NCBI GenBank assembly: GCA_027067135.1
Contig: JAMOMJ010000133.1
Coordinates: 1 to 46,651 of the forward strand
Source of the DNA: Cyclobacteriaceae bacterium
Lineage (GTDB): Bacteria; Bacteroidota; Bacteroidia; Cytophagales; Cyclobacteriaceae
DNA: 46,651 nt
Reading direction: 5' to 3'
Part shown: positions 33,473 to 36,338 of the stretch, in pieces
Numbering within the stretch: position 1 is the first letter of the stretch
Layout of the letters: the number at the start of each line of letters is the position of its first letter
Program-made: the position numbers and the translations under genes
Notes under the pieces: generated by a model
What the model saw: the letters and a program-made list of their open reading frames with translations, nothing else
Database searches by the model: none
Told to the model about the DNA's origin: nothing

Positions 33473-33559
33473 AATCTATTCAAAAATAGTTTTTAGTTAT
33501 GGTAACCTCAATTAATGACAATTATATTCGTTTATTTAGTAAAATAATTAATTCAGTTT

Positions 33560-34033
33560 ATGCGTATTCGACAGGTTTATTTTACAAACTATTTATTAAT
33601 TGGCATATTACTATTAACCTCCTGTGCAGGTCATAAATCAAAACGAAGTAGAACAGAAACAGTTATAAAAACCGCAAGGTCTTATACGGGTACACCTTAC
33701 AAATGGGGTGGTACTACCAAGTCGGGAATGGACTGCTCTGGGTTATTACTTAATTCATTTAAGGCCATTAATTATAAAATTCCACGTACTTCAGCAGAGC
33801 AAAGTAAAATAGGTAAAAAGGTAGCTAAAAGTGACATTAAACCTGGTGATTTAGTATTTTTTGCTACTGGAAAAAAGAAACGAAAAATTACGCATGTAGG
33901 GTTGGTAACTGAGGTTCGAGGTAAAGATAATATCAAGTTTATCCATGCTTCTTCAAGTGTTGGTGTAACCGAAAGTAACTTGGCAAGCAGTTATTATAAA
34001 AAACGATTTCGAATGGCTCGCAGAGTTTTATAA
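33560..34033 (+). CDS. NlpC/P60 (C40) cell-wall peptidase lipoprotein
   Basis: A 157-residue lipoprotein (lipobox LLTSC, Cys22) with a complete NlpC/P60 domain. The catalytic Cys59 lies in GMDCSGLLL, His112 in THVGLV, and the third polar residue is His129 in FIHASSS. The YKWGG and PGDLVFF segments are typical. Such enzymes cut gamma-D-Glu-diaminopimelate bonds in peptidoglycan stem peptides, in the periplasm. The gene is convergent with the small membrane peptide gene, 4 bp apart. Confidence 0.93.
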   Translation: MRIRQVYFTNYLLIGILLLTSCAGHKSKRSRTETVIKTARSYTGTPYKWGGTTKSGMDCSGLLLNSFKAINYKIPRTSAEQSKIGKKVAKSDIKPGDLVFFATGKKKRKITHVGLVTEVRGKDNIKFIHASSSVGVTESNLASSYYKKRFRMARRVL

Positions 34034-34037
34034 ATTA

Positions 34038-34190
34038 TCAATTAAGAAAGTTTCTAACTAATTCGATAACTACTAAGGCTCCTAGGATAAACAATAATAG
34101 TGGAAGTATTGGATTTGTCTTTTTCTTATACTCAGAACCCGCATCCCATCGGCTAGACATAAAAGACCTTGAACCCCTTCTAAATTTCAT
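34038..34190 (-). CDS. 50-residue single-span membrane protein
   Basis: A 50-residue frame starting MKFRRGSRSFMSSRWDAGSE, with a basic N-terminus and a single hydrophobic helix (PLLLFILGALVVIELV, residues about 30-45). An AGAGG sequence sits just before the ATG. Its stop is 4 bp from the convergent NlpC/P60 stop codon. I recognise no family; the charge-then-helix design is that of a small inner-membrane protein. Confidence 0.6.
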   Translation of the reverse strand: MKFRRGSRSFMSSRWDAGSEYKKKTNPILPLLLFILGALVVIELVRNFLN

Positions 34191-34242
34191 CCTCTAAAAT
34201 TAAAAAATAACGCTCAATAATTCTAAAATAATAAAGGTAGTA

Positions 34243-34274
34243 TTGAATGGCATAACTAAACTTTTCTATATTTG
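34243..34274 (+). promoter_or_regulatory. Promoter of tRNA-Ala
   Basis: TTG at 34243-34245, 21-bp spacer, then TATATTTG at 34267-34274, matching the Bacteroidetes -33/-7 (TTTG, TAnnTTTG) scheme. The tRNA starts 10 bp later. The same TTG-N21-TAnnTTTG layout precedes fabG (39494-39525). Confidence 0.75.
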
Positions 34275-34283
34275 CAGCCGCTC

Positions 34284-34357
34284 GGGGGATTAGCTCAGTT
34301 GGCTAGAGCGCTACACTGGCAGTGTAGAGGTCATCGGTTCGAATCCGATATTCTCCA
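34284..34357 (+). tRNA. tRNA-Ala (anticodon GGC)
   Basis: All four arms fold: acceptor GGGGGAT / ATTCTCC with the G3:U70 pair that identifies tRNA-Ala, D-arm GCTC / GAGC, anticodon arm CTACA / TGTAG with loop CTGGCAG (U33 present, anticodon GGC), and T-arm ATCGG / CCGAT around TTCGAAT. Discriminator base A73. The CCA end is not encoded (ACT follows). A hairpin terminator begins 5 bp downstream. Confidence 0.95.
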
Positions 34358-34361
34358 CTAT

Positions 34362-34397
34362 AAGGGTTTACTTATACTAAGTAAACCCTTTGTTTTT
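34362..34397 (+). terminator. Terminator after tRNA-Ala
   Basis: A perfect 13-bp stem AAGGGTTTACTTA / TAAGTAAACCCTT around a 3-nt loop (34362-34390), followed by TGTTTTT. It ends just before the GIY-YIG start codon at 34405, so that gene is probably reached by read-through or has another promoter. Confidence 0.85.
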
Positions 34398-34404
34398 GAC
34401 TTAT

Positions 34405-34656
34405 ATGAAAGGGTTCGTCTATTTTATCTACTCAAAAAAATGGAATCAATTCTATGTTGGTTCCTCTACGGATGTGGATAAAAGAGTAGAACAACACAAC
34501 TCTGGCCAAAATAAGTCAACTAAAGGAGGGAATCCTTGGATACTAAAACATACCGAAGTTTTTAATTCACCTACCGAGGCTAGAAAACGTGAATATGCCA
34601 TAAAGAAAAAGAAAAGTAGAAAATACATTGAATGGTTAATTAACTCAGTGGGGTAG
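34405..34656 (+). CDS. GIY-YIG nuclease domain protein lodged between a tRNA and its degenerate copy
   Basis: An 83-residue single-domain GIY-YIG protein. The motif halves read FVYFIYS (residues 4-10) and FYVGSS (16-21), with Arg27 in DKRVEQHNSG and a late Glu63 in ARKREYAIKKKK. This fits the small SLX1/UvrC-like group. I use the ATG at 34405; the longer frame from a TTG at 34390 begins inside the tRNA terminator. The last codons (IEWLINSVG) and the UAG stop are built from the D-arm of a tRNA-like sequence. It sits 47 bp after tRNA-Ala. Enzyme activity and mobility are inferred. Confidence 0.87.
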   Translation: MKGFVYFIYSKKWNQFYVGSSTDVDKRVEQHNSGQNKSTKGGNPWILKHTEVFNSPTEARKREYAIKKKKSRKYIEWLINSVG

Positions 34657-34710
34657 AGCGCTCCGAAGGCTTTCGGAGAGGTCATCGGTTCGAATCCGAT
34701 ATTCTCCACT
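34634..34710 (+). pseudogene. Degenerate tRNA-like copy at the 3' end of the GIY-YIG gene
   Basis: Bases 34677-34710 are identical over 34 nt to 34326-34359 of tRNA-Ala (variable loop, T-arm, acceptor 3' half and ACT). The 5' half resembles a D-arm (AACTCAGTGGGGTAGAGCGC). It is not a working tRNA: the acceptor has two mismatches, the anticodon arm is a 6-bp stem CTCCGA / TCGGAG with a 6-nt loop (or 5 bp with 8 nt), and U33 is missing. The GIY-YIG stop codon lies in the D-loop. It ends before a terminator, like the real tRNA. Confidence 0.8.
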
Positions 34711-34716
34711 TCAATA

Positions 34717-34750
34717 AAAAAAGGTTGGTTCATTGGAACTAACCTTTTTT
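34717..34750 (+). terminator. Terminator after the tRNA-like copy
   Basis: A 15-bp stem (A-rich arm with GGTTGGTTC; opposite arm GAACTAACC with a T-run; one G-T pair) around a 4-nt loop. The T6 tract on the right and A7 on the left make it usable in both directions. Confidence 0.85.
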
Positions 34751-34770
34751 ATTGACTTAAGTTTTTCACT

Positions 34771-34778
34771 TAACTTTG
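34771..34778 (+). promoter_or_regulatory. TAnnTTTG box abutting the pterin-synthase start codon
   Basis: TAACTTTG ends 4 bp before the ATG at 34783. If used, transcription would begin at or very near the start codon, giving a leaderless message. Confidence 0.5.
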
Positions 34779-34782
34779 CACC

Positions 34783-35316
34783 ATGGGTCATATTATTTAC
34801 AAAGAGTTTCATGGTTGTTTTGGTCATCGAGTATGGAACCAAAACCTAGAAGAAAAATTTGCGGATTCAACTCAGTGTACTTGTAGGTATCTACATGGCC
34901 ATAATTTTAAAACGGTTGTTTATCTTGAATCTGACAAGCTTGTTAATGGTATGGTAACGGACTTTAAGCATTTAGGTGCTTTTAAAAAATGGCTCGACCG
35001 TGTAATGGATCATAAAACTTTGATGGACATTAGCGACCCAATGATACCCACTATGTTGCCAAAGGCTAAAATTGAAGATGCTATTTTAGAATTAAAAGAT
35101 AAGCTTTTTGCCATACCAGAAACTAAAAAAGAACTCACCGAGCTAGAATATGAACTTTATGCAGGAATTGTGTTTGTAAACTTTGCACCTACTGCTGAAA
35201 ATATTAGCAAATGGATTTTCGAAGCCGTTAATACTCTTTTACCCCAGGGAGTACGATGTACTAAAGTAGAGTTTTGGGAAACCCAAAAAGCAGGGGCTAT
35301 TTATACCAATGAATAG
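34783..35316 (+). CDS. 6-pyruvoyl-tetrahydropterin synthase / QueD family protein
   Basis: A 177-residue T-fold enzyme. The zinc ligands are His15 (FGHRVW) and His38 and His40 (YLHGHNF), and Cys34 precedes them in TCRYLHGH at the catalytic position. Later GMVTDFKHL and the FAPTAENISKWIFE segment with a Glu are family features, and the C-terminal WETQKAGAIY supplies the pterin-anchoring Glu. Family members make 6-carboxytetrahydropterin for queuosine (QueD) or 6-pyruvoyltetrahydropterin. At 177 residues it is longer than E. coli QueD (about 120), with an insertion near 85-125. Pathway assignment to queuosine is likely but not proven; no other que gene is nearby. Confidence 0.87.
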   Translation: MGHIIYKEFHGCFGHRVWNQNLEEKFADSTQCTCRYLHGHNFKTVVYLESDKLVNGMVTDFKHLGAFKKWLDRVMDHKTLMDISDPMIPTMLPKAKIEDAILELKDKLFAIPETKKELTELEYELYAGIVFVNFAPTAENISKWIFEAVNTLLPQGVRCTKVEFWETQKAGAIYTNE

Positions 35317-35330
35317 TTATTGGTTAAGAG

Positions 35331-36338
35331 TTATTCCATTTTCTGAATAATCTTCATCGTTTGCTCAAGCATCTGTTCTGTAAAATCTAAATGAGTAACA
35401 AATCGAATTTGATTGCCTCCAAAAGGCACAGCTAACACTCCTTTTTCTTTTAATTGGTTTAGTCTTTTGTCCACTTTATCCACTGAAAAAATAACAATGT
35501 TCGTATCAACTGGCATAACCTCTTCTACAAACGGGGCGTTTCTAAGAGTCTCTCCCAAAGCCCTTGCTCTTAGGTGATCCTCTTTCAATCGCTCCACATT
35601 ATGGGCTAATGCAAACAAGCCGGCAGAAGCTAAATACCCTGCTTGGCGCATACCGCCACCAAATACTTTTCGTACCCTACGCGCTTTTTTAATATGTGCT
35701 TTTGAGCCTAATAAAATCGAACCAATAGGTGCTCCCAACCCTTTAGATAAACAAATGGAAATTGTATCAAATACTTTTCCGTATTGAGTTGGAGTTTCTT
35801 TAGTTTCGACCAAGGCGTTGTATAAACGAGCTCCATCTAAGTGGAGTGCTAATCCTTTCTCATCACAAAGGTTTCTAATATTTTCTATCTCTTTAAAATC
35901 ATAGTAACTACCTCCACCTTTGTTCATGGTGTTTTCTAAACTAACTAACCGACTTACCGGAGCGTGAACATCATCGGGTTTAATAACTGCCTTAATTTGT
36001 GCAGCAGTAATCCTTCCTCTATTCCCATCTAACAAGGCAGGAGATACCCCTGAGTTAGAGGCCATTCCTCCACCTTCGTATAAATAAACATGTGAATTTT
36101 TATCGCAAATAACTTCATCTTGTGGTTGTGTATGTACCCTAATTCCAATTTGGTTGGCCATCGTGCCCGAAGGGCAAAAAACAGACGCTTCCATTCCGAA
36201 AATGTTAGCCATCTTTTCTTCCAGTAAATTTACTGTTGGGTCATCTCCAAACACATCATCGCCCACTTCTGCCGCCATCATGGCTTCGAGCATTGGTTTA
36301 GTGGGTTTTGTAAACGTATCGCTGCGTAATTCTATCAT
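35331..36338 (-). CDS. ltaE: Low-specificity L-threonine aldolase
   Basis: A 335-residue fold-type I PLP enzyme. The PLP Lys199 lies in SICLSKGLGAPIG, the Asp of ALHLDGARLYNA (Asp168) contacts the pyridine ring, and the N-terminus MIELRSDTFTKPT is typical of threonine aldolases. It splits L-threonine or allo-threonine to glycine and acetaldehyde. The gene is convergent with the pterin-synthase gene (14 bp) and shares orientation with the ExbB-like gene upstream, separated by a terminator hairpin. Confidence 0.9.
   Translation of the reverse strand: MIELRSDTFTKPTKPMLEAMMAAEVGDDVFGDDPTVNLLEEKMANIFGMEASVFCPSGTMANQIGIRVHTQPQDEVICDKNSHVYLYEGGGMASNSGVSPALLDGNRGRITAAQIKAVIKPDDVHAPVSRLVSLENTMNKGGGSYYDFKEIENIRNLCDEKGLALHLDGARLYNALVETKETPTQYGKVFDTISICLSKGLGAPIGSILLGSKAHIKKARRVRKVFGGGMRQAGYLASAGLFALAHNVERLKEDHLRARALGETLRNAPFVEEVMPVDTNIVIFSVDKVDKRLNQLKEKGVLAVPFGGNQIRFVTHLDFTEQMLEQTMKIIQKME

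Follow-up and report, generated by a model that had tools for sequence, protein, structure and literature searches.

The tRNA-Ala locus

The DNA analysed here, termed the window, is a stretch of 46,651 nt read on the forward strand of contig JAMOMJ010000133.1 from a Cyclobacteriaceae bacterium (assembly GCA_027067135.1). In this stretch, an intact tRNA-Ala gene is followed by a small GIY-YIG nuclease gene, which runs into a second, tRNA-like sequence. The features of the locus are as follows.

34243–34272, + strand: candidate promoter-like site 5´ of the tRNA-Ala (consensus scan; 7 sites versus 2.8 expected)
34284–34358, + strand: intact tRNA-Ala(GGC) (aragorn; Rfam RF00005, 66.8 bits)
34326–34359, + strand: exact 34-nt repeat, copy 1, comprising the end of the anticodon stem, the T-arm and the 3´ acceptor strand
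34362–34390, + strand: terminator-like stem separating the tRNA from the nuclease gene (scan)
34405–34656, + strand: GIY-YIG nuclease gene, 83 aa, ATG start, stop within the tRNA-like tail
34634–34709, + strand: tRNA-like tail, a pseudo-tRNA-Ala (RF00005, 39.9 bits; alignment to the tRNA)
34661–34678, + strand: hairpin CTCCGAAGGCTTTCGGAG, which takes the place of the tail's anticodon arm (27 Ala tails show covariation)
34677–34710, + strand: exact 34-nt repeat, copy 2
34716–34750 (about), + strand: terminator-like stem 3´ of the tail (by eye; unflagged by the terminator scan)

The motif TATATTTG at 34267–34274 of the window is similar to the Bacteroidota −7 box. An alternative in-frame TTG at 34390 gives a nuclease ORF of 88 aa. 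A first-pass annotation of this DNA had described the intact tRNA followed by an 83-residue GIY-YIG gene, which aragorn, RF00005 and the Pfam GIY-YIG model confirm, and the 34-nt identity that it had noted between the two copies is exact. Its statement that the gene ends inside the second tRNA-like sequence also holds; the final codons and the stop are located in the 5´ half of the tail. Of the terminators that it had placed after each copy, the one behind the tRNA was recovered by the scan, and the one behind the tail is seen by eye only.

The annotation had treated the tail as a 3´ tRNA fragment that also keeps D-arm and anticodon-arm features. Instead, the tail is a whole tRNA-like copy in which a hairpin replaces the anticodon arm, and the covariance model that had been suggested as a check scores it above the gathering score of RF00005 (39.9 versus 29 bits). 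The copy is nonetheless degenerate: its acceptor stem contains two mismatched pairs, and aragorn makes no tRNA call on it. Compared with shuffled sequences, the predicted RNA fold of the tail alone is mildly better (z −1.76), and that of the intact tRNA reaches z −2.82. No half-copy was observed upstream of the tRNA-Ala in the window. Among the ORFs between the two tRNA copies there is no integrase, and the sole recognised protein is the GIY-YIG nuclease. The six Rfam matches up to E 1 at 33500–35500 include no intron family, and hence no group I intron.

The nuclease

The encoded protein matches Pfam GIY-YIG (PF01541) with an E value of 7.1e-17. Twelve positions, including Y6, Y17, G19, R27 and E63, are invariant in 14 relatives. 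The median dN/dS over 60 non-independent nuclease pairs is 0.11 and no pair exceeds 1; the protein is under purifying selection. The match to the TIGR01453 homing-endonuclease model reaches 28.8 bits against a cut-off of 56.05 and covers residues 2–40 only, and the PADLOC HEase match (E 6.5e-5) covers residues 1–38. As judged from these profiles, the resemblance of the nuclease to a homing endonuclease does not extend over the full length. The closest solved chains by profile are the small GIY-YIG proteins of UPF0213, PDB 1zg2 (E 1.5e-14) and 1ywl (E 1.6e-13), with SLX1 nucleases next. The UPF0213 match spans most of the nuclease chain; unlike the tRNA-linked nuclease described here, however, these two PDB entries give neither a function nor a tRNA context.

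Association with tRNA genes

Relatives of the nuclease were found in 71 of 98 genomes of the taxonomic family (E ≤ 0.001), and many of these matches occur in runs with a spacing of about 340–440 bp. The draft genome that contains the window (81% complete) has a single nuclease copy. A tRNA-blind scan of a genome collection, with six relatives as queries, yielded at least 169 loci, the best 80 of which were used. The 79 usable loci from these best 80 are distributed among Bacteroidota (66), Ignavibacteriota (6), Fidelibacterota (3), Calditrichota (1) and Cloacimonadota (1), with two unplaced, and 57 of them have a same-strand tRNA within 300 bp.

In the combined set (191 gene copies at 146 loci), a same-strand tRNA lies within 300 bp of the nuclease at 115 loci and an opposite-strand tRNA at none. 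This tRNA is upstream in 104 of the 115 loci and downstream in 17, some having both. Small GIY-YIG relatives thus sit mostly at tRNA genes. The arrangement recurs at 16 isotype/anticodon classes in one orientation. For the control, 25 loci of an unrelated protein were retrieved by the same procedure, and at none of them was a tRNA called within 1.5 kb. The other 31 of the 146 loci comprise 13 near a contig edge and 18 away from an edge with no same-strand tRNA called within 300 bp; at least 11 of the latter have a hairpin tail, 12 being listed with a hairpin close to the gene end, and several have an Ala-type tail. A reversed order was observed in L148 and L151 (2001–2308), in which the nuclease ORF is directly followed by an intact tRNA-Gly(GCC) and no upstream tRNA was called.

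L001, which is the window itself, was excluded, as were L056 and L059, which repeat L016 and L005. Because L004 and L089 share one genome and L005 and L136 another, with both members of each pair counted, the loci are not fully independent; L089 was excluded from the phylum tally and from the comparison of left and right hairpins. Some family stretches were chosen by hand for close reading, which favoured tandem ones. Carriage by plasmids or phages was also considered and rejected: no plasmid match was found, and the viral matches were two weak ones to Staphylococcus phages and nine weak viral contigs.

Tails match the local tRNA

The sequence 3´ of the gene was compared with tRNAs of all isotypes. 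The blind set contains 57 units that have an upstream tRNA, and in 52 of them this sequence fits the unit's own tRNA better than every tRNA of another isotype. A finer comparison was possible within tRNA-Ala, where 25 of 43 units have a scorable 3´ half and all 25 strictly prefer the local allele over 20 others; in the remaining 18, decay or alteration of this half prevents scoring. Summed over all 43 units, the allele match is 952, compared with 741 (sd 17) after permutation, and none of 2000 permutations reaches 952. Units shorter than 150 nt were dropped from the isotype comparison and from the reading of tail anatomy. The tail is therefore either kept equal to the local tRNA or made from it. 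The first-pass annotation had proposed a possible minimal tRNA-targeting unit and had named two outcomes that would make it a chance juxtaposition. Both checks came out in favour of its proposal, given the position of the relatives at tRNA genes and the preference of the tails for their own neighbour and allele.

A tree built from 104 nucleases shows 23 switches of tRNA type, compared with 54–61 in 300 shuffles; this tree rests on 80 columns and has many weak forks, and repeated proteins were removed. The small number of switches indicates that nuclease clades are loyal to one tRNA.

Hairpins and half-copies

Across tRNA types, most tails have a TCCCGA..TCGGGA-type hairpin, which varies among clades, where the anticodon arm would be. 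A second hairpin of the same type occurs in the T-loop of some tails and in the D-loop of some upstream copies. In an alignment of 27 Ala tails, the hairpin and the T-arm contain 33 cells with two-sided changes, compared with 9.1 in shuffled alignments, and none of 500 shuffles reaches 33; 23 of the 33 fall in the hairpin. One of the five alignment-based measures, the number of further pair types, does not go beyond the shuffles (66/500). The alignment-based count was used in place of a fixed-register count (0.46 paired; shuffled mean 0.34), which is blurred by jitter. Retention of the anticodon in the hairpin loop was rejected as a rule (Ala GGC 7/39, Asp GTC 6/28, Met CAT 1/10), with matches under about 50 profile positions dropped from the tally; the anticodon is present in the loop of a few tails (Arg TCT 3/3, Leu TAA 2/2).

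Partial tRNA copies on the two sides of the unit decay in opposite directions. Upstream of the intact tRNA, 103 loci yielded 29 half-copies, 28 of which are better preserved in their 5´ half (means 0.93 versus 0.56; random about 0.4). Downstream copies were found 47 times in the same number of loci, and 42 of the 47 keep the 3´ half better (0.915 versus 0.645). Part of the 5´-half decay of the downstream copy may arise because that half is coding. Thirteen loci have a hairpin on each side, and the two partners within a locus are alike to a degree that none of 5000 permutations attained.

The palindrome TCCCGA(N2-8)TCGGGA occurs at 1300 sites in the 98 genomes, compared with 201 for the reversed pattern; some of the counted palindromes are the tails themselves. 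Genomes with more nuclease matches have more palindromes (rho 0.61; control −0.12), in a correlation that ignores the kinship of genomes. The median is 3 palindromes in the 27 genomes without a nuclease match and 10 in the 71 genomes with one. A strong palindrome family in the genome of the window was not supported (6 sites versus 2 for the control; 4 versus 1 for the window's own variant). In L071 (1501–1518; G000 C38:35385–35402), a TCCCGACAGTTGTCGGGA palindrome lies within an open frame of 267 codons, which looks as if palindromes insert into genes too. Three TCCCGATAGCTATCGGGA palindromes, 56 bp apart, are located immediately 5´ of the tRNA-Ala of L002 (G085 C1:415457–415586).

Arrays and turnover at orthologous sites

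Two arrays illustrate which part of the unit is multiplied. In L031 (G096 C1:3225000–3231500), 14 near-identical units of nuclease and pseudo-tRNA-Asp follow two intact tRNA-Asp genes, which have a partial hairpin copy on their 5´ side. In L281 (194–1039; G239 C1), nine pseudo-tRNA-Ala copies with TCCCGACTGCTGTCGGGA-type hairpins and a 77-bp period precede one intact tRNA-Ala, in a stretch without a nuclease gene. In such arrays the pseudo-tRNA has multiplied, either alone or together with the nuclease, and the working tRNA has not. Nuclease arrays in L005, L018, L021 and L034 lie a few hundred bases from a contig end, and assemblies may be broken by them.

Empty sites, for which the first-pass annotation had suggested a search, exist within the genus of the window, where five genomes were examined at the site behind the same upstream gene. 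G098 has a tRNA-Ala without a nuclease and a candidate hairpin scar 3´ of the tRNA. G092 has two hairpin copies 5´ of the tRNA and no nuclease. G014 contains a partial upstream copy and a truncated nuclease gene, and the match in G099 is at a contig edge only. In two pairs of congeners, one partner (G014 with C44 and C251; G001 with C33 and C55) has the two flanks of the tRNA-Ala site on separate contigs, which suggests rearrangement near the element.

A broader sample of one site was obtained with the tRNA-Ala flank of Algoriphagus winogradskyi, which matches 335 of 390 genomes (E ≤ 0.001). Ninety stretches were read at this orthologous site, 30 from loci of this flank search and 60 fetched in addition. 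The 60 were taken down the match list, skipping G401, G314, G039 and G031, and several end early at contig ends. The nuclease gene is present in 21 of the 90 stretches and a remnant of it in 2; 29 have pseudo-tRNAs or hairpins only, 30 were scored as bare, and 8 lack an intact tRNA-Ala. The bare count is an upper bound because L229 and L234 retain faint remnants. A tree of 30 flanks gives 8 changes of nuclease state, about as many as expected from shuffling the labels (mean 7.2, minimum 5), and the nuclease shows no clustering on it.

In L228, the outer half-copies fit one known Ala allele (26/26 and 31/32 letters), and the intact tRNA in the middle is a different Ala allele, identical to that of L238. 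This pattern hints that a cassette carrying a tRNA of its own was inserted. L228 is one of seven loci with half-copies on both sides; the other six have a single allele throughout or are decayed.

Discussion

Several known systems share parts of this arrangement. Genomic islands that carry an integrase enter at the 3´ ends of tRNA genes. As in these islands, an intact tRNA lies on one side of the unit and a 3´-half copy on the other, with a direct repeat of tens of bases; here, however, there is no integrase, the nuclease is the sole gene between the repeats, and the copy comprises an entire pseudo-tRNA. Another parallel is offered by REP palindromes, which go with RAYT transposases. The short dispersed palindromes that track nuclease number are reminiscent of this pair, although the enzyme here is a GIY-YIG nuclease, not a Y1 transposase, and the unit is bound to tRNA genes. 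The Ssn proteins are GIY-YIG nucleases specific for single strands, with cognate repeats in Neisseria. By description rather than by sequence, they share with the present units a small GIY-YIG nuclease and may share a recurring, partly dispersed sequence near the gene; the tRNA association and the pseudo-tRNA arrays differ.

The literature search, in which broad topics were covered by top-ranked matches, found no description of this tRNA/GIY-YIG/pseudo-tRNA element and one close precedent, SegB. According to the published account, SegB is a free-standing GIY-YIG homing endonuclease of T-even phages, described in phage T6, which cuts tRNA sequences with the cleavage motif RAWTSGAAC and is required for tandem amplification of tRNA-Tyr together with segB; the 5´ end of the tRNA has microhomology with the 3´ end of the gene (PMC13096335). 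Both systems have a GIY-YIG gene beside a tRNA, tandem tRNA/nuclease repeats and short homology linking the tRNA's 5´ end to the 3´ end of the nuclease gene, and the complement of its motif fits GTTCGAATC in both tRNA copies of the window. In contrast to SegB, the elements here are chromosomal, the protein has 83 aa and shows no second domain, a hairpin takes the place of the anticodon arm in the pseudo-tRNA tail, and the arrays amplify this pseudo-tRNA instead of the working tRNA. Because of this last difference, selection for tRNA dosage under attack, as for SegB, is not favoured. The elements resemble a far smaller, chromosomal version of SegB with a built-in pseudo-tRNA. They may work like SegB, and we do not call them SegB because the likeness to homing endonucleases is not full-length.

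Our preferred reading, to which we assign a probability of roughly 0.6, is that the locus is a minimal selfish chromosomal homing element on a tRNA gene, SegB-like in action, with the tRNA repeats as recombination arms. The association with tRNA genes in one orientation, the loyalty to tRNA type, the match to the local allele and the tandem arrays support it, as do the coexistence of occupied and bare orthologous sites, the hairpin covariation and the purifying selection. We infer the following steps for cleavage and its site, for repair and for the function of the hairpin. The nuclease, each clade of which keeps to one tRNA type, would break or nick DNA at a tRNA sequence, either the tRNA gene or the hairpin copies. 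Recombinational repair between tRNA repeats would then copy the nuclease gene into bare sites, and the same recombination would let tandem units grow and shrink. Selection would preserve one intact tRNA copy and leave the other copies free to swap the anticodon arm for the hairpin, which may protect them from the enzyme or flag them for it. Against the homing reading, the intact tRNA that adjoins the gene would need to escape the enzyme. Also against it stand the 18 of 146 loci that lie away from contig edges and have no same-strand tRNA called nearby, the 18 of 43 Ala tails that could not be scored, the many weak forks of the nuclease tree, and the short protein with its partial homing-endonuclease match.

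A more specific form of this reading is a tentative proposal that we consider somewhat unlikely. The element would be a replacement cassette that is capped by cognate hairpins on both ends, inserts in the anticodon arm of the resident tRNA and brings its own intact tRNA along with the nuclease, so that the split gene is immediately replaced; the nuclease would act on hairpins, perhaps single-stranded. Mirror-image decay of the half-copies (28/29 upstream, 42/47 downstream) speaks for it, and the similarity of left and right hairpins at 13 loci, the two alleles of L228, which such insertion would leave behind, and the scaling of dispersed palindromes of the same kind with nuclease copy number (rho 0.61) point in the same direction. 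The allele pattern, however, is confined to L228 among the seven two-sided loci, and gene conversion of the middle tRNA yields the same picture. Moreover, 74 of 103 loci, like the window, lack an upstream half-copy, and the 5´ half of the downstream copy also codes for protein. The compensatory changes in the hairpin and T-arm (33 versus 9.1 shuffled), together with the overlap of ORF and tail in the window and many relatives, would also suit a tRNA-like RNA ending that protects or regulates the nuclease message through RNase P or Z processing or autoregulation, with mobility secondary. This appears improbable: such covariation is expected of DNA hairpins also, the tails often lack the 5´ acceptor strand and the D-arm and fold just mildly better than shuffles, and the matching to local alleles, the upstream copies and nuclease-free arrays such as L281 are left unexplained. 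Transfer RNA genes duplicate and short repeats recombine, so neutral tandem duplication with a bystander gene must be weighed too, along with chance juxtaposition. Both are very improbable given the 16 isotype/anticodon classes in a single orientation, the recurring hairpin motif, the absence of tRNAs from all 25 control loci and the purifying selection on the protein. Chance juxtaposition is refuted by the fit of the tails to their own tRNA (52/57) and allele (25/25) and by the 115 of 146 loci at a same-strand tRNA.

The element may be among the smallest autonomous-looking selfish elements, with about 350 bp and one gene parked on essential tRNA genes, and it is common in Bacteroidota and found in neighbouring phyla. 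Because bare, scarred, single-unit and tandem states coexist at one orthologous site, homing can be tested directly there, as can local amplification of genes and the evolution of tRNA genes. Should the replacement-cassette form be true, the cargo would be a nuclease plus a spare essential tRNA. The host could not easily lose such an element because the tRNA that it brought keeps the cell alive. Selfish DNA would then have a new route to becoming essential, through a guild of such elements in which every nuclease clade keeps to a single tRNA.

The genome of the window also contains a second tRNA-Ala-like gene (L207; G000 C245:10609–10686), which is 85% identical to the query. By eye, its anticodon is TGC and it adjoins an apparent ribosomal RNA sequence.
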